NCBI GenBank assembly: GCA_030681265.1
Contig: JAUXXD010000062.1
Coordinates: 1 to 40,405 of the forward strand
Source: Candidatus Didemnitutus sp.
GTDB taxonomy: Bacteria; Verrucomicrobiota; Verrucomicrobiia; Opitutales; Opitutaceae
DNA length: 40,405 nucleotides
Reading direction: 5' to 3'
The notes beneath the pieces were generated by a model. It worked only from the letters and a program-made list of their open reading frames with translations. It was not told where the DNA came from and made no database searches. Shown one piece after another: positions 16,788 through 40,048 of the stretch (positions are counted from its first letter, which is position 1; each line of letters begins with the position of its first letter). A program made the position numbers and the translations under genes.

Positions 16788-18254
16788 TTAGCCACCGGCG
16801 CGAGCAGGCGGGAAGCGCAAGACAACTCGTGTGCCGCGACCGACTTCGCTTTCGATTTCGGCCAGGCCATGGTGGAGCCGCATGACGGACTGCACTATCG
16901 CCAATCCAAGTCCGGCCCCCTGAGTGGAGTGTTCGCGCGTCCGATCCGCCTGATAAAATCGATCAAATACCCGCGGAAGATGCTCACGTGCGATGCCCGA
17001 GCCGGTGTCAGTCACACAAATCTCGCAAGCGCCGTCGGAGGTCACGCGAGCAGCCAGCGTCACGCGCCCGCCGATGGGAGTATGTTTTAGGGCGTTGGCG
17101 AGGAGGTTGCTAATAGCTCTGCGCACTAGCATCAAATCGCCACCAAGCGTCGCATCACCTTCGCAAACCACGTGAACTCCCTTTTCCGCGGCCAGCGCTT
17201 CGTAGAACTCCATGACCGCGACCATTTCCTCGCGCACAGGGAAAGGACGATGTTCGATGGCCGCGCTGACGTCATCTGCGCGGGCAATAAAGAGCAACCC
17301 GTCGATCAAGCGCGAGAGACGAGCGAGTTCCTCCAAACTCGAAGAAAGTGATTGCTGGTATTCCTCCGGAGATCGCGTCCGCGCCAGTTGCACTTCCGCT
17401 TCGCCACGGAGGTTGTTGATCGGATTGCGCAACGCATGCGCCATGTCGGCCGAACACCGGGAAAGTTGCGCAAAGGAGCTTTCTAATCTCTCGAGCATCA
17501 AATCAAATTCCTTGGCCAACACCACCAGTTCGGCCGGCCACTGCAACGCCGTGAGCCTACCGTTAAGATGGTTGGCCGTAATCCGCTGAGTCGCGCGAGT
17601 AATACCCACCACCGGCTGTAAACCTGCGCGAACAATTGCTACGCCGAAAACGACTGCCATGAAAACACCCACTAGCAGCGCACTCAAGAGATTCGTCCGG
17701 TAGTTCATCAGAATCTCGTCATTGTGTTCAACGTTAAGAGCGACTTGCAGCCGCTTCGCCGGTTTAGTGTCCGCCGAATCCGGCGCGCGCGCCGTTGCAA
17801 GGAGAAACCGGCCGCCATAAGACAGCTCACGTTCGGCAATTCCTTCGGCTTCGGCCGGCGGAGCGGGAAACTGAGCCGCCGGAAGAATCGCGCCCATCCC
17901 GGGCGTCTCAATCACGAGCCGCCCATCCGCCTCAAGCACCCGCAAGTAGTATTTGAGCACGCTCTCCTCTCCAGCTTCGTGCTCAATTTCGCTCTCCAAG
18001 GCATGCTCGCGGACGGCACCCTCCTTCAACAATAATTGCAACACCCGAATCTTACTCGCCACCATCACACGGTCCTGCTGCGCCAGACTGTGCTGCAGCC
18101 CAATGTAAAGATAACCTGCAGAAAAAAACAGCAGCAACACCGTTGCCAAAATGTAATGCCGCGCGAGGCGTCCGGCGATCGACCATTGCGTGGAAAACAA
18201 TGCGCGGAGAACCGCACCCACCGTCCCATCAGCTAGCTTCAAGGACATAACCAA
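16788..18254 (-). CDS. Two-component sensor histidine kinase (CusS/heavy-metal type layout)
   Basis: 488 residues. TM1 ~33-53 (YILATVLLLFFSAGYLYIG), periplasmic sensor ~54-186, TM2 ~187-208, then HAMP (~209-260). HisKA phosphoacceptor H273 is in CSADMAHALRNPINNLRGE. The ATP-binding domain has N-box NLLANALKHTP, G1 DTGSGI, F-box FDRFYQADRTREH and G2 GAGLGLAIVQ. The start (GTG/ATG cluster at 18254-18248) overlaps the end of the response-regulator gene by about 20 bases, so the two are translated together. The order and length match IrlS/CusS-type kinases; the stimulus is unknown. The gene next along on the regulator side encodes the cytochrome-porin, a possible target. Confidence 0.92.
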   Translation of the reverse strand: MVMSLKLADGTVGAVLRALFSTQWSIAGRLARHYILATVLLLFFSAGYLYIGLQHSLAQQDRVMVASKIRVLQLLLKEGAVREHALESEIEHEAGEESVLKYYLRVLEADGRLVIETPGMGAILPAAQFPAPPAEAEGIAERELSYGGRFLLATARAPDSADTKPAKRLQVALNVEHNDEILMNYRTNLLSALLVGVFMAVVFGVAIVRAGLQPVVGITRATQRITANHLNGRLTALQWPAELVVLAKEFDLMLERLESSFAQLSRCSADMAHALRNPINNLRGEAEVQLARTRSPEEYQQSLSSSLEELARLSRLIDGLLFIARADDVSAAIEHRPFPVREEMVAVMEFYEALAAEKGVHVVCEGDATLGGDLMLVRRAISNLLANALKHTPIGGRVTLAARVTSDGACEICVTDTGSGIAREHLPRVFDRFYQADRTREHSTQGAGLGLAIVQSVMRLHHGLAEIESEVGRGTRVVLRFPPARAGG

Positions 18255-18912
18255 CTCCTCTGACAGTTTGGATCAATTTACACGTGAAAGCATCATCTAC
18301 TTTACTCCGCAAACGGCGGACGGCGACATCGACGACGTTGGTGTCACTGTCGAAATGCATTTCCCACACCAATTCAGCGATCATGGTGCGCGATAGCACC
18401 TCGCCTTGTCGGCGGGCCAAGAGGGACAGCAAAGCAAATTCCTTTGGCGTGAGATCTAGGCGTTTACCCGCCCGCACAGCGCGATGTCGCGGCAGATCGA
18501 GTTCGAGATCGAGAATCGTAATTGTCTCCGCCTGCCGCGCCGGTCCGCGCCGCAGAATCGAACGCACACGCGCCAACAGTTCGGAAAACGCAAATGGCTT
18601 TACGAGGTAATCGTCAGCCCCGCAATCGAGTCCTTTTACGCGCTCTTCGGTCTTGTCGCTCGCCGTCAGAATCAAAACCGGCATTTGCCGACCAGCACGG
18701 CGCAATGATTGCAAAATGGACCAACCATCTCGCCCCGGAAGTTGGATATCCAAAATCATTGCGTCGTAGGACTCGGTCATTGCGAGGTGCAGTCCATCCT
18801 CTCCGTGATTGGCTACGTCGATGACATAGCCGCTCTCTGACAGTCCCTTTTTGAGATAGTCCGAGGTCTTTCGTTCATCCTCCACCACCAAGATGCGCAT
18901 GACGGCTGACAT
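18229..18912 (-). CDS. OmpR-family response regulator
   Basis: About 227 residues from ATG 18912 (MSAVMRILVVEDE) or 223 from ATG 18900; neither has a strong ribosome-binding site. The receiver domain shows the acidic pair in VVEDE, phosphorylatable D51 (counted from ATG 18900) in MILDIQLPGRDG, and the conserved lysine in YLVKPFAF. The winged-helix output domain has LDLTPKEFALLSLLARRQGEVLSRTMIAELVW and a terminal VRGVGYVLE. It acts as a DNA-binding transcription factor controlled by the adjacent kinase. A strong terminator upstream (18981-19018) separates it from the cytochrome genes, so it has its own promoter within 18913-18980. Confidence 0.93.
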   Translation of the reverse strand: MSAVMRILVVEDERKTSDYLKKGLSESGYVIDVANHGEDGLHLAMTESYDAMILDIQLPGRDGWSILQSLRRAGRQMPVLILTASDKTEERVKGLDCGADDYLVKPFAFSELLARVRSILRRGPARQAETITILDLELDLPRHRAVRAGKRLDLTPKEFALLSLLARRQGEVLSRTMIAELVWEMHFDSDTNVVDVAVRRLRSKVDDAFTCKLIQTVRGVGYVLEAS

Positions 18913-18980: not shown

Positions 18981-19018
18981 AGAAAAATGGCCAGCGCGGG
19001 TCCAAAACCGCGCTGGCC
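18981..19018 (-). terminator. Rho-independent terminator after the cytochrome-porin gene
   Basis: On the minus strand, an 11-bp perfect stem (GGCCAGCGCGG / CCGCGCTGGCC, arms 19008-19018 and 18989-18999) with an 8-base loop is followed by ATTTTTCTT. It lies 40 bases past the stop of the gene at 19058, and ends that transcript before the response regulator gene. Confidence 0.88.
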
Positions 19019-19057: not shown

Positions 19058-20335
19058 TTAGAACGCCCAAGTAAGTTGCGCTGTCAGGCGGTTATCGGAA
19101 TACTTCGTCGTGCCAGCGGTGGTAATGTTGCCACCCAAATAGCTGGTTTTGTTCGTGTATTCGACGCCGAAGCGAACAGCGGCGTTTTCCGATTGGAAGA
19201 AGAGCGTGTTGTAGCCGACGAGGAACATAGAGGTCTCATTGTTGCTAATGGCCGTATTCGGATCGACGTGGTCGTAGCGGATGTAAGCGCCATGCCGATC
19301 AGTGAAGTTGTAATCGATGAGACCATAGAAACCGCGGTTGTCGGCCTTTGCGCCAGCCGCGTTGAGCGTTTCTTCGCCGACAAGGTAAGCACCGACCACG
19401 CGCCAGTTATCACGAATGAAGCGTCCGAAAATTCCCGTGCGATAGAAATCATTCTTGAATAGCAAAACCGTGGAGAAGTCCTGTTTCACCGTGTAGGTCG
19501 AGAATTTGCCATCGTAGTAATACATGCCGATAGCGGACTCGTGTTCGTCAAAGCTGTAGAGCGCAGAGAAATAGAGGTCCTTGTGGGAATCTGCGTCGAT
19601 CGAGTTCGTGGTCGAGACATCCGATCCGTTCACTAGGCCAACCGCCACTTCGTAATGTTTGCCAGTCAAAGCCGCATCAATACCTTGTTGGCGACTGAAT
19701 GGCTTGTAGGTATTAGGATTGCCCGAGAGGGAGTCGTTCAGCGGCAAAGCGCGTTGTTCGGCACTGCGGGCGCCGACACCGAAGACGTGAATGATCGCCG
19801 GAAGGATTTCACCCGCACGCACCGCGAGGTAAACATCCTGCGCGTCGTTGAGCGGATGGTTATACTGGAGAAATGCTTCGGCGAGTTTCTTGCGGGCGGC
19901 TTCACCTTGCACAATGTTTGCGCCCGAAGTTGCTCCCGTGTTTTCGCTCAAATAGATCTCCGTAAAATAGGAGAAGCGTTCCGCAATCGGTCCGCCTGTG
20001 TAGAGCGCGAAGGAGTGTTGCTCCAGATTGGTGCGCGGCTTTTGCGTGTTAGCGTTACCGGTGCGCGCGGTGTCGAGCTGCTCATACCATGCGCGACCTT
20101 TCCAAATGAGACTCAGGTAGTGGTCCCACTTGATTTCTTCGGGCATTTTGAACGGCTCGGCGCGGTGACCGCTCTTGAGGAAATCAAGTCCGGTAGCATT
20201 AAGTTGCCACGTGGGTGTCGCATGGCAGGCGTTGCAGGACGCGCCAGCTTGGCGCGACCAAGCTGGGATAGCAAAGCTCGTGGCCGGCACTAGGAGGGCC
20301 AGCGCGATGAGCGCGGTGTATCGATTAGTTTTCAT
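19058..20335 (-). CDS. Outer-membrane monoheme cytochrome/beta-barrel fusion (Cyc2-like layout)
   Basis: 425 residues. A signal peptide (MKTNRYTALIALALLVPATSFA) is followed at once by IPAWSRQAGASCNACH, a c-type heme site (C34, C37, H38). The rest (~60-425) has alternating hydrophobic/aromatic strands (SFALYTGGPIAERFSYFTEIYLSEN, YFSALYSFDEHESAIGMYYYDG, GFYGLIDYNFTDRHGAYIRYDHV) and ends in LTAQLTWAF, the terminal Phe typical of outer-membrane barrels. One heme plugged into a porin is the plan of Cyc2, the outer-membrane iron oxidase; related proteins of unknown role exist in many bacteria. A GGAG site lies 8 bases before the ATG. It begins 12 bases after the small cytochrome gene and ends at a terminator. 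Confidence 0.8.
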   Translation of the reverse strand: MKTNRYTALIALALLVPATSFAIPAWSRQAGASCNACHATPTWQLNATGLDFLKSGHRAEPFKMPEEIKWDHYLSLIWKGRAWYEQLDTARTGNANTQKPRTNLEQHSFALYTGGPIAERFSYFTEIYLSENTGATSGANIVQGEAARKKLAEAFLQYNHPLNDAQDVYLAVRAGEILPAIIHVFGVGARSAEQRALPLNDSLSGNPNTYKPFSRQQGIDAALTGKHYEVAVGLVNGSDVSTTNSIDADSHKDLYFSALYSFDEHESAIGMYYYDGKFSTYTVKQDFSTVLLFKNDFYRTGIFGRFIRDNWRVVGAYLVGEETLNAAGAKADNRGFYGLIDYNFTDRHGAYIRYDHVDPNTAISNNETSMFLVGYNTLFFQSENAAVRFGVEYTNKTSYLGGNITTAGTTKYSDNRLTAQLTWAF

Positions 20336-20347
20336 GGGTTTCTCCGG

Positions 20348-20626
20348 TTAGGAATTTTTTCCGAAATTTGGGTAGTCCTTAAGCCATTCGAGGTTGATTT
20401 CCTTAGCGCCACGACGGGCTTGTTCATCCACCAGCCATTGACCTCGCTCACTGAGTGGATCGTTCTTTTTCGGCTTCTCTGGCACGTGACAAGCAGTGCA
20501 CGCCGTAATCGACGAGTCGTATTTCTTAGCTTTCTTGTTCCACGCCAGCTTGGCTTGGAGTGGTGCGGCCACCAACGCCAACAACACAACGGATGCGGCG
20601 ACCTTTAGGAGGGGCTTGGAGTTCAT
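20348..20626 (-). CDS. Small periplasmic monoheme c-type cytochrome
   Basis: 92 residues from ATG 20626, where the signal peptide starts (MNSKPLLKVAASVVLLALVAAPLQA); the frame extends 42 residues upstream without coding character. The mature protein is about 67 residues with one CTACH heme site (C43, C46, H47) followed by a Lys/Glu-rich tail (PEKPKKNDPLSERGQWLVDEQARRG). Its stop is 12 bases before the cytochrome-porin start, on the same strand. That makes it a natural periplasmic partner to carry electrons to or from the outer-membrane heme. The axial ligand opposite H47 is not obvious (no Met in the mature part), so bis-His or His-Lys/Asn coordination would have to be assumed. Confidence 0.78.
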   Translation of the reverse strand: MNSKPLLKVAASVVLLALVAAPLQAKLAWNKKAKKYDSSITACTACHVPEKPKKNDPLSERGQWLVDEQARRGAKEINLEWLKDYPNFGKNS

Positions 20627-20827
20627 GGTGTGTTTCACCCGAATCCGCATTCGTTCCACTTGGCGGCTCCATCGATGGCCCGCTGTCGTTAGCGAACGCT
20701 GAGTTCGGAATTTGAAGCTCGGATTATGCACCCTCGGTCTGATCAAATTCATGACCGCTGGATTACGGTTTTGTAATCCATGCCATGCCGGCCCGCACTT
20801 TCACCTCACATCCGGGCATGCCTAAAT

Positions 20828-20858
20828 CCGCCGCGCTGGACTTGCTCGGGAAAAAATA
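20828..20858 (+). repeat. M20 3'-end repeat, copy 2
   Basis: CCGCCGCGCTGGACTTGCTC plus GGGAAAAAATA matches the end of the M20 gene at 30 of 31 positions (one c/g change); the next base turns its TAA stop into TAG. It lies between the small cytochrome and S41 genes, in no gene of its own. Confidence 0.8.
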
Positions 20859-20884
20859 GTCTAGTGGCGGCACGGGCCGCCATC

Positions 20885-22189
20885 ATGAATCAATCTATTC
20901 GTTGGGGTTTAATCTTCGCTGTCAGCGCCGTTGCGTTGCACGCCGGTCCGGCTGAACGACAGTTGGAAACGGTGCGCACCATGATGCTTCGGCCCGTGTG
21001 GGAGACGATTCGTGAGAACTATTACGATCCGAATTTCGGTGGCGTTGACATCGGCGCTTTGGAAAAGGGGGCCGAGCGCCAGCTCGCTGGTGCAAAATCA
21101 CTGGCCGAGGCACTCTCGATCATCGCGCAATCTGTCGAGAATTTCGGCGATTCACACACCTCGTTCATGTCGCCCCCGCGACCGTTCGAGGTCGAATACG
21201 GGTGGGCACTGGATATCGCTGGTCGCAACGTCGTGGTTGGCGCCGTCGAGCCCGGCAGTGATGCCGAAAAAAAGGGCGTGCGACCCGGCGAACAAGTGCT
21301 CCGGGTCAACGGCATGCCCGCGACGCGCGACACGCTGAACTTGATTCGCTACTCGTTGAATGCGCTCAATCCACAGCCCGGTATCCGTGCACAACTCCAG
21401 TGGCACGACGGCAGTCAACGCGAAGTGGAATTTGCCGCCAAGGTTACAGCAAGACCGCAAAGGCTCGAATTCTACAACGGCCGCGACCGCCAACTCGTCG
21501 AACTCGAATCAGAAAAACATGCGCGCAAACGTCGCAGTGTGTGGCAGGAACTGGGACCCGGCGTTCTGTGGTGGAAGTTGGCCGGTTTCAGCGAAATCCA
21601 GCATTTGGAAAAAGGCCTGCGGCAGGCCGCGGGCTATGAACACGTTATTCTTGATTTGCGGGGAAATCCCGGCGGCCTGAGCAGCGTGATGCTCGAGGCG
21701 ATTGGCGCGTTTTTTCCGAAAAAAACCACTATTGGAACAATCCGCCTGCGCCACAAAACCGAGCCGCTCGAGGCGAGCAGCCGGCATTCCTTGCGCGGAA
21801 AACTGTATGTGTTGATCGACGGTGGGTCAGCCAGCGCCAGCGAGGTGCTCGCAAGAACGATCCAGCTCACAGAGCGGGGCCTGATTCTCGGCGACCGGTC
21901 AGCCGGAAAGGTGAATCGAGGTCTGGCACACAACCTCGACGTCGGCCCGGACGATAATCTGATTTTGTTCGGAGTCTCGGTGACTAATGCCGCGATCCTC
22001 ATGACAGACGGTCAGCCACTGGAGAAAATCGGCGTCACGCCCGAAGTGTGGTTGGTGCCGTCACCGCTTGATCTCGCGGAGGGCAACGATCCGGTGCTGG
22101 CGGCGGCGGCGAAATTGGCCGGCATCACTTTGAGCAAACAGGACGCTGGCGCGATCTCGCGGCGTCACCGTCCACCGATCTTCGACTAA
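20885..22189 (+). CDS. Secreted S41-family (C-terminal processing-type) serine protease
   Basis: 434 residues from ATG 20885 (MNQSIRWGLIFAVSAVALHAGPAE, signal peptide); the longer frame from 20780 runs back through the M20-repeat copy and is not a real N-terminus. Residues ~30-100 are the tail-specific-protease N-domain (NYYDPNFGG, SVENFGDSHTSFM), ~105-190 a PDZ domain, and ~225-400 the catalytic domain. Catalytic serine S317 (DGGSASASE) and lysine K342 (DRSAGK) are 25 residues apart, the spacing seen in Prc/CtpA. It would cleave exported proteins in the periplasm. Its upstream and downstream edges carry copies 2 and 3 of the M20 repeat. Confidence 0.9.
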   Translation: MNQSIRWGLIFAVSAVALHAGPAERQLETVRTMMLRPVWETIRENYYDPNFGGVDIGALEKGAERQLAGAKSLAEALSIIAQSVENFGDSHTSFMSPPRPFEVEYGWALDIAGRNVVVGAVEPGSDAEKKGVRPGEQVLRVNGMPATRDTLNLIRYSLNALNPQPGIRAQLQWHDGSQREVEFAAKVTARPQRLEFYNGRDRQLVELESEKHARKRRSVWQELGPGVLWWKLAGFSEIQHLEKGLRQAAGYEHVILDLRGNPGGLSSVMLEAIGAFFPKKTTIGTIRLRHKTEPLEASSRHSLRGKLYVLIDGGSASASEVLARTIQLTERGLILGDRSAGKVNRGLAHNLDVGPDDNLILFGVSVTNAAILMTDGQPLEKIGVTPEVWLVPSPLDLAEGNDPVLAAAAKLAGITLSKQDAGAISRRHRPPIFD

Positions 22190-22383: not shown

Positions 22384-23682
22384 TCAGAGCAACTCGGGCA
22401 GGATTTTCAAACTGCCATCGGCTCCCGGGCGCAGGCGGTCGCGGGCGATTTCGTGCGCGATCTCGCGCCACGTGACGTCTTTTGCGCGGTGGTTGGCCTG
22501 ACGACTGAACATCTCGTCGATGTTCTCCGTAATGATGCGCGTCACGACTTTCTCGATGTAGGCGCGGCCCTTGCCGTCCTCGGCCATCACTTGATCGCGG
22601 AAGGCAGCATCGACGTCGGCCTTGGCCTCGATGAAGGCCGCGATCACACCGCCGGAGTTCACGATGAAATCCGTCAGGCTGACGATGCCGCGGCGGTGTT
22701 GCAGGAAATATTCGCTGACGAGGTCGGCGGGGTTATTGGCCCCTTGCAACACGAGGCGCGTGTGGATGTGAGTGGCGTTCTCCGGGTGAATCGCGTGCGG
22801 GCGCGCGGCGGGAACGAGAATCGTGCAGGGCATTTCCAACATGCGATCAACGTGCTCGCCGTCGAAGCGCTCGCGCAGCGGGCCGCAATACGCGCCGAGG
22901 CCTTCGGGGGTGCGGCGAATCGCGAGCAGGTGGTCCACGTCGAGGCCGTCGGGATTGTAGAGGCCGGCGTTGATGTCGGAGGCACCGACGATGCGCGCGC
23001 CGAGGCTGGCTAGTTTTTCTGCGATGGGCGCGCCGACGTTGCCAAAACCCTGGATGACGACGCTCGAATCCTTGATGCGAAAATCGGGGAGATGATTTTC
23101 CGCGGCGACCGCGGCGGCGAAAAGTCCGTGCGCGGTGATGGCCCATTCGTCGAGCGGGAAGCCGCCTTGTGCGGGCGGACGACCGACACCGCCGCGACCG
23201 TGGTTCGGGGCGCCGTTTTTCTGCGCGAACACTTCGTAAATCGTCTGCATGTCCGTTTCATTCGTGCCCATGTCGGGACCGGGAATGTATTCCGGAATCG
23301 CCCACAGCGCGTCGGCGAACAGCGTGATCAACGCCTTTTTCTCCTCTGGTTTGTTGGCGAAGTAGCGCGGATCGACGCGCAGGCCGCTCTTGGCGCCGCC
23401 GAGCGGCAGCATGGCCGCGGCGCTCTTCATCGTCATCGCTGCGGCGAGGCCGTAAACTTCGTCCACCGACACATCGGGTGCGAGGCGCAAGCCGCCGAGG
23501 CCGCGACCGCGCACGAGATTATCGACGGCGACGAAGCCCCACGTGGTGTTGTCGGCGGGGTCGAAAATGCGGTAGATGCACTCGGGACCGAATTCGTTGC
23601 GCGGGATCTTGAAACGATTTTCGATATCCGCGCCGCGCACGGCTTCGGCGGCGAGGCTTTGGGGAAATTTGTGGGTCTGCAT
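22384..23682 (-). CDS. Glu/Leu/Phe/Val-type glutamate dehydrogenase
   Basis: 432 residues from ATG 23682 (MQTHKFPQSLAAEAVRG); the frame runs further upstream without homology. The dimerisation/substrate domain has GGLRLAPDVSVDEVYGLAAAMTMKSAAAMLPLGGAKSGLRVDP, with glutamate-binding K86 and catalytic K98. NETDM and GPDMGTNE follow. The nucleotide domain has GFGNVG (212-217) with D236, suggesting NAD. It interconverts glutamate with 2-oxoglutarate and ammonium; leucine or phenylalanine dehydrogenase activity is possible within the family but the full length favours glutamate. The gene is divergent from the FKBP gene with 158 bases between starts. The REP pair lies 17 bases beyond its stop. Confidence 0.9.
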   Translation of the reverse strand: MQTHKFPQSLAAEAVRGADIENRFKIPRNEFGPECIYRIFDPADNTTWGFVAVDNLVRGRGLGGLRLAPDVSVDEVYGLAAAMTMKSAAAMLPLGGAKSGLRVDPRYFANKPEEKKALITLFADALWAIPEYIPGPDMGTNETDMQTIYEVFAQKNGAPNHGRGGVGRPPAQGGFPLDEWAITAHGLFAAAVAAENHLPDFRIKDSSVVIQGFGNVGAPIAEKLASLGARIVGASDINAGLYNPDGLDVDHLLAIRRTPEGLGAYCGPLRERFDGEHVDRMLEMPCTILVPAARPHAIHPENATHIHTRLVLQGANNPADLVSEYFLQHRRGIVSLTDFIVNSGGVIAAFIEAKADVDAAFRDQVMAEDGKGRAYIEKVVTRIITENIDEMFSRQANHRAKDVTWREIAHEIARDRLRPGADGSLKILPELL

Positions 23683-35532: not shown

Positions 35533-36519
35533 CTACTCATCCTGGTATCTGGCCAATAGCCTCTGCACTGCGGTGCGGCCCGCTGGTTTCAGCAGCAGAC
35601 GTCGCACGAACTGACTGGCACTGGCCGGTTCTCCCATTTCCAGTCGATCCGCCAGCCAACCGTTGGAAACTGACGTGCTTTGTTTGAGCGCTGAGGCAAG
35701 TAGCACTTTGTCGGGATGGGACTTCGCCGCCGGCAGCGGCTCCAGCGCGATCCCCGCCAAGGCCGCAAGTTTCTGCAATTTCTCTTCCCATGCGGCGTGT
35801 CGTTCGTCTTGCGCCACCTCCGGTTCAAGCCCCGCAAAACGATCCAACTCCGCACCGCGCTCGCTCGCCGCTCGGCGCATTTCCTTGCGAAAATCCGCAC
35901 TCCCGACGCACCAACCGCGACTCAGCTCACGTGAGGCTAGAGCCTTTTTCGACGGTTTGTCTTCGCTCAGAAACTCCAAATAGCGCTGATATTTTCTCCA
36001 GCCCGCAGCCGTATCGGGCAGGCTGCCAGCCGCCTGGAGAACGGTGTCGCCAGCGAGCCATGCGGGACGCTTCTTGGCGGGAAACACCGCCAGACTACCG
36101 TGTTGAAATTCGGGCAACCGGGACGCCGTGACGGCACCTGCGCGCACCGGATTGAGGTGGATGTAATGACAGACCTGCGCAAAGGCATGGCCCGGCTCGA
36201 CCAGCAGCGCCTTGTAACGGCCTTGAAACGGACGGCCGATCAGCTTGCGCATGCCATTGTAGCGGCGAATCCAAGTGCCCTGCAGCCACTTCATCCCCTC
36301 GCTCAAGTTCGGCTCGGTGATTTCCACCGCCAGATGAAAATGATTCCGCATCACCACGTAGGCATGCACGCGCCACTGAAATCGCACCGCGGCTTCACCC
36401 AACGTCCTCACAAAAGCCTCCGCCGAACCCTTGCCGTCAAAGAGCGAACGACGGTAATTGCCACGGTTGATGACGTGATAACACGCACCGGCAAATTCAA
36501 TGCGCAACGGACGGGGCAT
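35533..36519 (-). CDS. REP-associated tyrosine transposase (RAYT1, Y1_Tnp family)
   Basis: 328 residues from ATG 36519 (MPRPLRIEFAGACYHVINRGNYR). The Y1 domain has the HUH metal motif HFH (H60, H62) in VVMRNHFHLAVE, the linker GTWIRRYNGMRKLIGRPFQGRYKA, and the nucleophile Y119 in CHYIHLNPVRAG. A C-terminal half of ~200 residues (KYQRYLEFL, LSRGWCVGSADF) is the RAYT-type extension. Such enzymes nick single-stranded REP hairpins and are thought to move REPs; they are not usually insertion sequences themselves. A 23-base repeat lies 31 bases before the start (36551-36573), the same layout as RAYT2. Confidence 0.9.
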   Translation of the reverse strand: MPRPLRIEFAGACYHVINRGNYRRSLFDGKGSAEAFVRTLGEAAVRFQWRVHAYVVMRNHFHLAVEITEPNLSEGMKWLQGTWIRRYNGMRKLIGRPFQGRYKALLVEPGHAFAQVCHYIHLNPVRAGAVTASRLPEFQHGSLAVFPAKKRPAWLAGDTVLQAAGSLPDTAAGWRKYQRYLEFLSEDKPSKKALASRELSRGWCVGSADFRKEMRRAASERGAELDRFAGLEPEVAQDERHAAWEEKLQKLAALAGIALEPLPAAKSHPDKVLLASALKQSTSVSNGWLADRLEMGEPASASQFVRRLLLKPAGRTAVQRLLARYQDE

Positions 36520-38992: not shown

Positions 38993-39071
38993 AGTCCAGC
39001 AATAGGGTCAGCAACGGTCTTTCAGGCGAGCTTAAATTGAGGGTTTTTCAGAAGTCCAGCAATAGGGTCAG
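38993..39071 (+). repeat. Direct repeat with 60-base period beside RAYT2
   Basis: AGTCCAGCAATAGGGTCAG occurs at 38993-39011 and exactly at 39053-39071. The second copy runs into the RAYT2 end repeat (GGCTTTGTAG); the first ends at AGCAACGG. The unit looks like a partial duplicate of the end repeat left by transposition or slippage. Confidence 0.65.
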
Positions 39072-39088
39072 GCTTTGTAGTTTGTAGT
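39062..39088 (+). repeat. RAYT2 left inverted repeat
   Basis: 27 bases, perfectly inverted at 40082-40108. Contains two GTAG tetranucleotides (TTTGTAGTTTGTAG), the motif recognised by RAYTs. The RAYT2 stop codon (39068-39070) and last four codons lie within it. Confidence 0.85.
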
Positions 39089-40048
39089 CCATCCGAGCTT
39101 CTTTTGTAGGGCGGGGTCGGGTTGGCGCTGCCAGGCACTGGCTTGGCGGCTGACTTCGTGTAGTCCGCCCATGTTCAAGGCGGTCCCGAGCCAGCGGTTG
39201 GTCGCGGTCGTGCGGGCCTTCAGGGCGGCGGCGAGGGCCCGTTTCCAGTCGGCTGATTTGCTTGTCTGAACGAGATCGGCCGGCGTGCGGCGGAGCTTGC
39301 GCAAGAGTCTGGTCAACTCTTCTTGCCAGAGGGCTTCTCTCGTCTGCTTGGTCTCGGCGGCCATCCGGCGTCCCTGTCCCACGAGTTCCTGGTTCTCCTT
39401 GATCATGGTCTTGGCGAAGTCGCTGGTCCCGATAATCCACCCCTTGGACATTTCGGTGAAGCGCTGTTTTTTCCGTTCCGATTCATTTTCGGCCAGCCAA
39501 CCGAGGTAATCGAGATATTTTCTGCGACCGGTGGGAGTGTCAGCCAGCTCGCCGGCGTGGTCCAGGGCGGGTTGGGGTTGATACCAAGCAGGTCGGAGCT
39601 TTGGATTCAGCAGCCAGCGCAGGCTGGTCCACGGGTAAGTCGGCAGGTCGGCGACGGGCCGGAGCTTTGCGCGGACGGGATTGAGATGGATGTAGTGACA
39701 GAGTGGACCCAGTCCGCCGTCGGGATCCACCAGCAGGCTCTTGTAACGGCCTTGAAAGAGGTGTCCGCGTTCGTTGCGCAGACGGTTGAACCGGGTGGAG
39801 TAAGTGCCCTGCAGCCACCGCATGCCGTCCACCAGATTGGCCCCGGGAGTGGAGACAGCCAGATGGTAATGGTTCGACATGAGGCACCAAGCGTGGACCA
39901 GCCAGCCGGTCTTCGCACAAGCCTCGCCGAGGCACGTGAGGAAGGCCATCTTGGCCTTGTCCGACCGGAAGATGTCCGTCCGGTAATTGCCCCGGTTCAG
40001 GATATGATAGACCCCGGCCTCGGACTCCATTCGCAATGGTCGCGCCAT
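39068..40048 (-). CDS. REP-associated tyrosine transposase (RAYT2, Y1_Tnp family)
   Basis: 326 residues, ATG 40048. The Y1 domain has HYH (H60, H62) in CLMSNHYHLAVS, FNRLRNERGHLFQGRYKS, and nucleophile Y119 in CHYIHLNPVRAK, at the same residue numbers as RAYT1. Identity with RAYT1 is clear in the first 130 residues and weaker later (KYLDYLGWLA, SKGWIIGTSDFAK). The gene fills a 1047-base unit bounded by 27-bp perfect inverted repeats; its last codons (NYKA-stop) are inside the left repeat, and its start is 33 bases inside the right one. That perfect pairing suggests recent activity as a mobile unit. Confidence 0.92.
   Translation of the reverse strand: MARPLRMESEAGVYHILNRGNYRTDIFRSDKAKMAFLTCLGEACAKTGWLVHAWCLMSNHYHLAVSTPGANLVDGMRWLQGTYSTRFNRLRNERGHLFQGRYKSLLVDPDGGLGPLCHYIHLNPVRAKLRPVADLPTYPWTSLRWLLNPKLRPAWYQPQPALDHAGELADTPTGRRKYLDYLGWLAENESERKKQRFTEMSKGWIIGTSDFAKTMIKENQELVGQGRRMAAETKQTREALWQEELTRLLRKLRRTPADLVQTSKSADWKRALAAALKARTTATNRWLGTALNMGGLHEVSRQASAWQRQPDPALQKKLGWTTNYKA

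Follow-up and report, generated by a model that had tools for sequence, protein, structure and literature searches.

What does a bacterium do with a minus-strand pair of genes that joins a very small exported cytochrome to a porin-like protein carrying a single heme site? The pair occurs in contig JAUXXD010000062.1 of Candidatus Didemnitutus sp. (Opitutaceae, Verrucomicrobiota; host genome of 3.56 Mb across 220 contigs), of which the whole stretch analysed, 40,405 nucleotides long, is referred to here as the window. The order on the minus strand is a gene for a small monoheme cytochrome of 92 amino acids (20348..20626), a spacer of 12 bases (from the small gene's end at 20348 to the large gene's start at 20335), a gene for a cytochrome-porin of 425 amino acids (19058..20335) with GGAGAA upstream of its ATG, a terminator-like stem, a response regulator gene and a sensor kinase gene. 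The original prediction had regarded the pair as a Cyc2-like electron conduit, and the two reading frames, the gap between them and the heme sites CTACH (residues 43-47 of the small protein, 20486..20500) and CNACH (residues 34-38 of the large one, 20222..20236) are indeed where it had put them. Our answer is that the conserved, regulator-linked cytochrome-porin locus is real, and that it is on balance probable that it encodes an inducible, single-heme route by which electrons cross the outer membrane, in which a heme-plugged porin would connect a dissolved redox species with periplasmic cytochromes.

A scan of genome contigs yielded nine relatives of the large protein, 55-88% identical to it across nearly the whole length, eight of them from metagenome-assembled genomes (MAGs) named Verrucomicrobia, Opitutaceae or its genera and one from Gemmatimonadota. 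A profile search then found full-length clade matches in 12 of 252 Opitutaceae genomes, one of them the window's, and seven further genomes gave matches that were short and weak; eight of the eleven other Opitutaceae members were contigs of the first scan and three were additional. Among 387 genomes spread evenly over the phylum there were two full-length members, in the window's genome and in one of the same genus, and 46 of 298 Gemmatimonadota genomes had a match at E <= 1e-5, two of which were full-length clade members. In these searches only the best candidates of a loose first look were scored in each genome (4-7 for the large protein, up to 16 for the kinase sensor domain and up to 21 for the small cytochrome), so absences are not proofs. 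The clade as used here therefore comprises 14 members, 12 from Opitutaceae and two from Gemmatimonadota; a tblastn search of a plasmid collection with the large protein gave no match.

The members share a common build. The window's protein has a signal peptide (residues 1-22, 20270..20335, the cleavage place judged by eye), its single CxxCH, a long barrel-like part (predicted from about residue 70 to residue 425, 19061..20128) and a C-terminal WAF, all of which had been noted before and are in the sequence. Each of the 14 members has one CxxCH, a mature length of at least 365 residues and F, Y or W as its last residue, and the heme cysteines and histidine (C34, C37 and H38 in the window's protein) are invariant in an alignment of 13 large proteins. 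Searches of Pfam and NCBIfam assigned no family to either of the window's two proteins except for the CxxCH domain TIGR01904, which stayed below its cut-off (15.5 vs 27 bits), and the PDB gave no useful match by sequence to the large or the small protein, whether as single sequence or as profile. Porin_O_P matched one of 13 clade members (E = 4.6e-4). Matches to CCP_MauG, a di-heme peroxidase family, in the heme region of 3/13 large proteins (best E 9e-4, the match displayed lying below the cut-off) and to one further stray family in 1/13 were taken as likeness at the heme site and rejected as family identity.

Relationship to Cyc2 was assessed with a profile (A2) of eight rows holding no clade member, namely six plasmid-borne Cyc2-like proteins (six of ten hits were opened) and two from Opitutaceae; judged by name, the Cyc2-like reference rows do not include the three characterised Cyc2 proteins. 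With this profile the window's protein was found at E = 6.6e-8; of the 12 Opitutaceae genomes bearing a clade member, 10 had a match at E <= 1e-5, which covered the heme module alone in two genomes (the window's included) and extended to about position 130 in eight. Compared directly, the clade and Cyc2 profiles gave a probability of 96.3. With signal peptides removed, 13 clade rows against 20 Cyc2-like rows scored 56.2 (probability 91.6, 344 columns), while the highest control scores were 24.6 among 60 column-shuffled decoys, 26.2 with a reversed profile and 30.2 with c4-type cytochromes. The heme modules alone (residues 23-58 in the window's protein, IPAWSRQAGASCNACHATPTWQLNATGLDFLKSGHR, 20162..20269) scored 47.6 with a probability of 97.1. 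On the strength of these profile comparisons, made on module and barrel separately, the clade's heme module is judged homologous to that of Cyc2, and the barrel is not so established.

In a 51-row tree the clade formed one branch (support 100/99) on the opposite side from the 20 Cyc2-like rows. Its neighbours were six Gemmatimonadota proteins of an AxPx[W/F]AR[K/R]Y type (support 97/93), a join that, according to a warning of the tree program, is among those linking long branches and may be false; literature searches found no published name for these AxPxWAR[K/R]Y heme-porins. The two Gemmatimonadota members (L009 and L077 in the tree) are nested among those of Opitutaceae and one shares their two-component system, a pattern suggestive of transfer between phyla, with the root unsure. 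By a count of rows, 22 of the 252 family genomes have at least one full-length Cyc2-like gene; the 12 clade genomes are not among them, which at these numbers may be chance.

The residues around the heme place the clade outside Cyc2 as published. In the description of Keffer 2021, Cyc2 has AXPXFAR[Q/K][T/Y] ahead of the heme and PXL behind it (PMC8406198). None of the 14 clade members has the former motif, a harsh test since only 6/20 Cyc2-like proteins pass it, and a looser AxPx[FWY][AS]R, with Trp in each case, is found in all 14. PxL, present in 20/20 Cyc2-like proteins, is absent after the heme site from all 14 clade members and is replaced by ATPTxQL, each having CHATPTxQL. Furthermore, the position after G..F...G, which is Tyr or Phe in the relatives, is His in 14/14 clade members (as GH) and in none of the 20 Cyc2-like and 17 intermediate proteins; this His57 (20165..20167) could be the second axial ligand of the heme. 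Of the Cyc2 layout claimed originally, then, the homology of the heme module stands and a Cyc2 profile does find the protein, but the published motif is missing and the clade lies apart from the Cyc2-like rows in the tree. Further types of heme-porin were seen in Opitutaceae and Gemmatimonadota (L034 991-2223 in genome G499, L079, L081, L083 and L095), with CHSLPPKLN or CHSP(A/S)VPRLN after the heme and likewise outside the strict Cyc2 motif.

The two-component system, which had merely been mentioned as a neighbour of the pair, is present and is a more constant partner than the small gene: it lies 3' of the porin gene on the same strand at 11/12 Opitutaceae loci and 1/2 Gemmatimonadota loci. 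The response regulator (18229..18912, minus strand) matched TIGR01387 with 339 bits (cut-off 279.2) and the sensor histidine kinase (16788..18254, minus strand) matched TIGR01386 with 373.1 bits (cut-off 292.55), which places them in the heavy-metal CzcR/SilR/CopR and CzcS/SilS/CopS subfamilies, respectively. The next-best models for the response regulator were copper/silver regulators and HprR, a peroxide-type regulator, all below their own cut-offs, and HprS was the second-best solved relative of the kinase, the solved relatives listed covering the kinase part. A profile of the sensor domain (17688..18107), built from 10 of the 12 linked kinases (nine of these from Opitutaceae), matched 14 of 252 family genomes at E <= 1e-6. 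Eleven of the 12 clade genomes were found, at 165-214 bits and including two kinases left out of the profile, as opposed to three of 240 others (112, 46 and 41 bits); nine of the eleven were found by construction, so that the near-absence elsewhere is the informative part. All 12 of the 12 linked kinases carry an E[IV]EHE motif, which the three outside matches lack; of those three matches, one is near a contig end, one is without obvious link and one (L122) is beside RND-like genes. Because the sensor domain is so distributed and the motif is confined to linked kinases, the kinase appears close to private to the cytochrome-porin. Kinase and porin identities also rise together (r = 0.64 over 55 pairs), a correlation not counted as evidence because shared descent alone would produce it.

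These regulators bear on a different explanation, in which toxic copper, iron or peroxide would induce the pair and be oxidised or reduced at the outer membrane, with electrons passing to or from the respiratory chain. Such a metal or oxidant defence would fit the heavy-metal assignment of both regulators above the cut-offs, the copper/silver and HprR models that come next, the E[IV]EHE of all 12 sensor domains and the RND-efflux-like genes (named by eye) beside L122, a weak sensor relative outside the clade. The subfamily name, however, spans sensors of several signals, and inspection by eye brought out no gene for metal efflux, copper binding or a peroxidase near the clade loci, most genes there not having been searched against the libraries. 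We consider defence unlikely.

The other half of the pair was examined in the same genomes. Seven copies of the small cytochrome are known, the six relatives being 55-80% identical to the window's; all have C43, C46 and H47 of the heme site, mature forms of 65-68 amino acids (start judged by eye) and isoelectric points (pI) of 9.2-9.7. Met is absent from 5/7, and the heme His is the only His in 6/7. In the window's copy (mature form about 67 amino acids, pI 9.4) the single CxxCH supplies the sole His and there is no Met, so the absence of a Met ligand claimed earlier holds for the mature form with its start set by eye. A profile of the seven found the gene at E <= 0.01 in 7/252 Opitutaceae genomes, in every case beside the porin gene; the profile was built from loci chosen for that position, and the informative part is the absence elsewhere. 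In the tree the five Opitutaceae members without the small gene group together (100/95), as do the two Gemmatimonadota members (100/99), and a wider group (99/97) takes in both branches along with L013, where the gene is present; with an unsure root, the gene may have been lost, or gained, on one or more occasions. Two candidate identities for the protein were rejected. DUF1924 was matched by 5/7 copies (best E 0.0074; the window's copy is without Pfam or NCBIfam family), and the match looks like the heme site alone because an ordinary c-type cytochrome gives DUF1924 too. That the small cytochrome might be the Cyc2 heme module in free form was not supported, since the probability of its profile match (86) hardly differs from the 83 that an ordinary c-type cytochrome gives against Cyc2. 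A structural model of the small protein (predicted local distance difference test, pLDDT, 59.8; below 50 over residues 5-52, which include the heme site) was not used.

Pairing with so small a carrier had been put forward as the less usual feature of the locus. All seven copies of the small gene do stand beside a porin gene, but the pairing does not extend to the whole clade. What remains unusual is that the carrier is very small, lacks Met and comes first in the gene order; a carrier cytochrome nearby is by itself not unusual, a c-type cytochrome gene lying within the 6 kb shown in 6/6 plasmid Cyc2-like loci opened, of 10 hits. Within the clade, a cytochrome gene is near the porin gene or its regulators at 10/14 loci, namely the seven with the small gene, L006, L009 and L105. 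Three of the seven loci without the small gene thus have other cytochromes close by (L006 and both from Gemmatimonadota). Both Gemmatimonadota members have a tetraheme cytochrome, that of L009 belonging to PF13435 and that of L105 being 51% identical to it, and L009 also has genes with 9 and 16 CxxCH within about 2.5 kb. At L006 the place of the two-component system is taken by a c-type cytochrome (PF13442/PF00034) and a 6-heme protein of the NapC/NirT family (PF03264), which is of quinol-dehydrogenase type. The same kind of gene pair occurs on contig C161 of the window's genome, directly preceded there by a gene for a 704-amino-acid exported protein (L104 2183-4297) without Pfam or NCBIfam match, possibly the large outer-membrane barrel of another electron conduit. 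In two other Opitutaceae genomes (L106 in G283, L123 in G516) a Cyc2-like gene follows Rieske, cytochrome b and 6-heme cytochrome genes (names by eye), and this arrangement hints at a dedicated bc-type complex.

The direction of electron flow has to be weighed at this point. The window's genome holds heme-copper oxidase genes or pieces of them (six matches, five over the cut-off) and two NapC/NirT-family matches, one NrfH-like by eye, so that a chain could be completed in either direction, inward or outward. Export of electrons via the porin, with Fe(III) complexes, humics or a shuttle as possible acceptors outside the cell, would be in keeping with the porin gene of L006 preceding its c-type and 6-heme NapC/NirT-family genes, the similar pair elsewhere in the window's genome and the outward porin-multiheme systems that He 2017 proposed for other Verrucomicrobia (PMC5615132). 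The L006 arrangement is seen at only 1/14 loci, however, and the three functionally tested Cyc2 proteins draw electrons from Fe(II) (PMC8406198), and an outward route is in our estimate somewhat less likely still than defence. The cytochrome genes also bear on whether the large protein might be a solute porin in which the heme acts as sensor or gate instead of relay. Linkage to a regulator at 12/14 loci and a weak structural model that is porin-like would be compatible with this, but cytochrome genes near the porin gene or the regulators at 10/14 loci and homology to an electron-transfer family argue against it, and we regard it as quite improbable.

We thus return to the electron path through the outer membrane and rank an inward or bidirectional relay first, defence second and outward use third. 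In the mechanism we propose, of which barrel location, heme loading, electron flow and its direction, substrate and regulation are what we infer, the large protein would be a barrel of porin type, plugged at its periplasmic mouth by the N-terminal heme module, in line with the model for Cyc2, where the module plugs the periplasmic opening and Fe(II) enters the pore (PMC8406198). A redox species in solution, which could be Fe(II), another metal ion or a small shuttle, would enter the barrel and trade an electron with the heme; relay of the electron to or from the periplasmic chain would fall to the basic 7.5-kDa cytochrome or, in some relatives, to another cytochrome nearby; and the metal-type two-component system would turn the pair on upon a periplasmic metal or redox signal.

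Several results weigh against this relay. The barrels alone gave no convincing homology between clade and Cyc2 (probability 11, P = 0.0027), and an ordinary monoheme c-type cytochrome (two rows) also matched the Cyc2 module (score 30.0, probability 83) and the clade module (score 25.7, probability 61), so that module probabilities are lenient and scores less so. A single heme at the periplasmic face bridges no more than part of the membrane. The small gene is absent, by the same profile, from around 5/12 Opitutaceae members and both Gemmatimonadota members, and no other open reading frame of at least 40 amino acids with CxxCH was found within 2.5 kb at L004, L005, L007 and L008; L008 has one about 3 kb upstream. 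A terminator-like site stands between the gene pair and the regulator genes, and a sigma-70 scan of the region found no sigma-70-like promoter. The AlphaFold2 model of the large protein, computed with ten rows, is poor (15 strands, mean pLDDT 50.9, predicted template-modelling score 0.53), and residues 1-111, heme module included, are below pLDDT 50; because of this the plug geometry is beyond the model's reach. With general porins as the best Foldseek matches of this weak model (best E 4.9e-5), and OprO, at Z = 15.2, among the tied best of the 50 VIA-align matches listed (Z from 15.4 to 13.6), model and fold matches support a predicted barrel of porin type.

A bolder proposal, which we judge rather unlikely as a whole, is that the clade constitutes a distinct, signal-switched class of cytochrome-porin. 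Its heme would have His57 as a second His ligand and a potential far below that of Cyc2 (208 +/- 20 mV for Cyc2 of Mariprofundus, PMC8406198), its donor or acceptor would be other than Fe(II), its dedicated 7.5-kDa carrier, without conserved Met or second His, would have a Lys-bound or open heme, and its metal or redox sensor with E[IV]EHE would be nearly private to it.

The surroundings of the locus are as follows. The terminator-like stem with its T tail, 3' of the gene pair (18989..19018, minus strand), has 11 pairs, 10 of them G-C, and the tail ATTTTTCTTA; it was the strongest of nine sites in a terminator scan of the region (3.7 expected), in agreement with the strong terminator reported originally. 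A gene for an S41 peptidase with a PDZ domain (20780-22189, plus strand) lies between the pair and a dehydrogenase-like gene (22384-23682). The dehydrogenase-like gene is also upstream of the locus in L040, L045, L046 and L048, there without the peptidase, and a fragment of an S41-type peptidase gene is 3' of the kinase gene in L040; given this piece after the kinase, the peptidase gene seems to have moved. Two minus-strand reading frames (35533-36519 and 39068-40030) resemble, by eye, REP-associated (Y1-type) transposases.

In titles and the opening parts of abstracts of the open-licence papers listed we found no description of the clade, its small cytochrome or its regulator. He 2019 reported Cyc2 homologues in Verrucomicrobia MAGs from a humic lake (PMC6344600), and neither Verrucomicrobia nor Gemmatimonadetes turned up when the main texts of PMC12442345 and PMC7029218 were searched for these terms. 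Cyc2 has been proposed as a marker of iron oxidation and its motif described as unique to it (PMC8406198; PMC7029218). The present results indicate that homologous heme modules on porin-like proteins extend past the Cyc2 motif, with other residues beside the heme and with a linked regulator; searches by motif therefore miss relatives, and Fe(II) should not be assumed as the substrate. The regulator also offers a handle, as the inducer of the operon would point to the substrate, which is relevant to many Cyc2-like proteins of uncultured bacteria.

Among known systems, Cyc2 is the closest in plan, with a signal peptide, a heme module with one CxxCH and then a porin-like barrel, comparable length, G..F...G followed by an aromatic residue or His after the heme, and a c-type cytochrome gene nearby in the six plasmid loci opened; the clade differs in a barrel that cannot be aligned with confidence and in the two-component system beside 12/14 loci. 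The Gemmatimonadota AxPxWAR[K/R]Y heme-porins share the Trp of the N-terminal motif in 5/6 rows and adjoin the clade in the tree, by the join that is possibly false, but PxL and Tyr/Phe are kept in 5/5 W-type rows, and Rieske and cytochrome b genes (names by eye) are near in all three loci opened, with no such two-component system there. Set against a 16-stranded porin of OprO/OprP type, the large protein was modelled with 15 strands at pLDDT 50.9, OprO being among the tied best matches. The regulators resemble CusRS, CopRS and HprRS in that both exceed the heavy-metal subfamily cut-offs, and differ in their linkage to a cytochrome-porin and in a sensor domain with E[IV]EHE. Finally, MtrAB, MtoAB, PioAB and the Verrucomicrobia porin-multiheme systems share the proposed passage of electrons across the outer membrane (PMC5615132), but there a large barrel is combined with a separate multiheme protein, whereas the clade described here has a smaller barrel with a single heme module fused to it.

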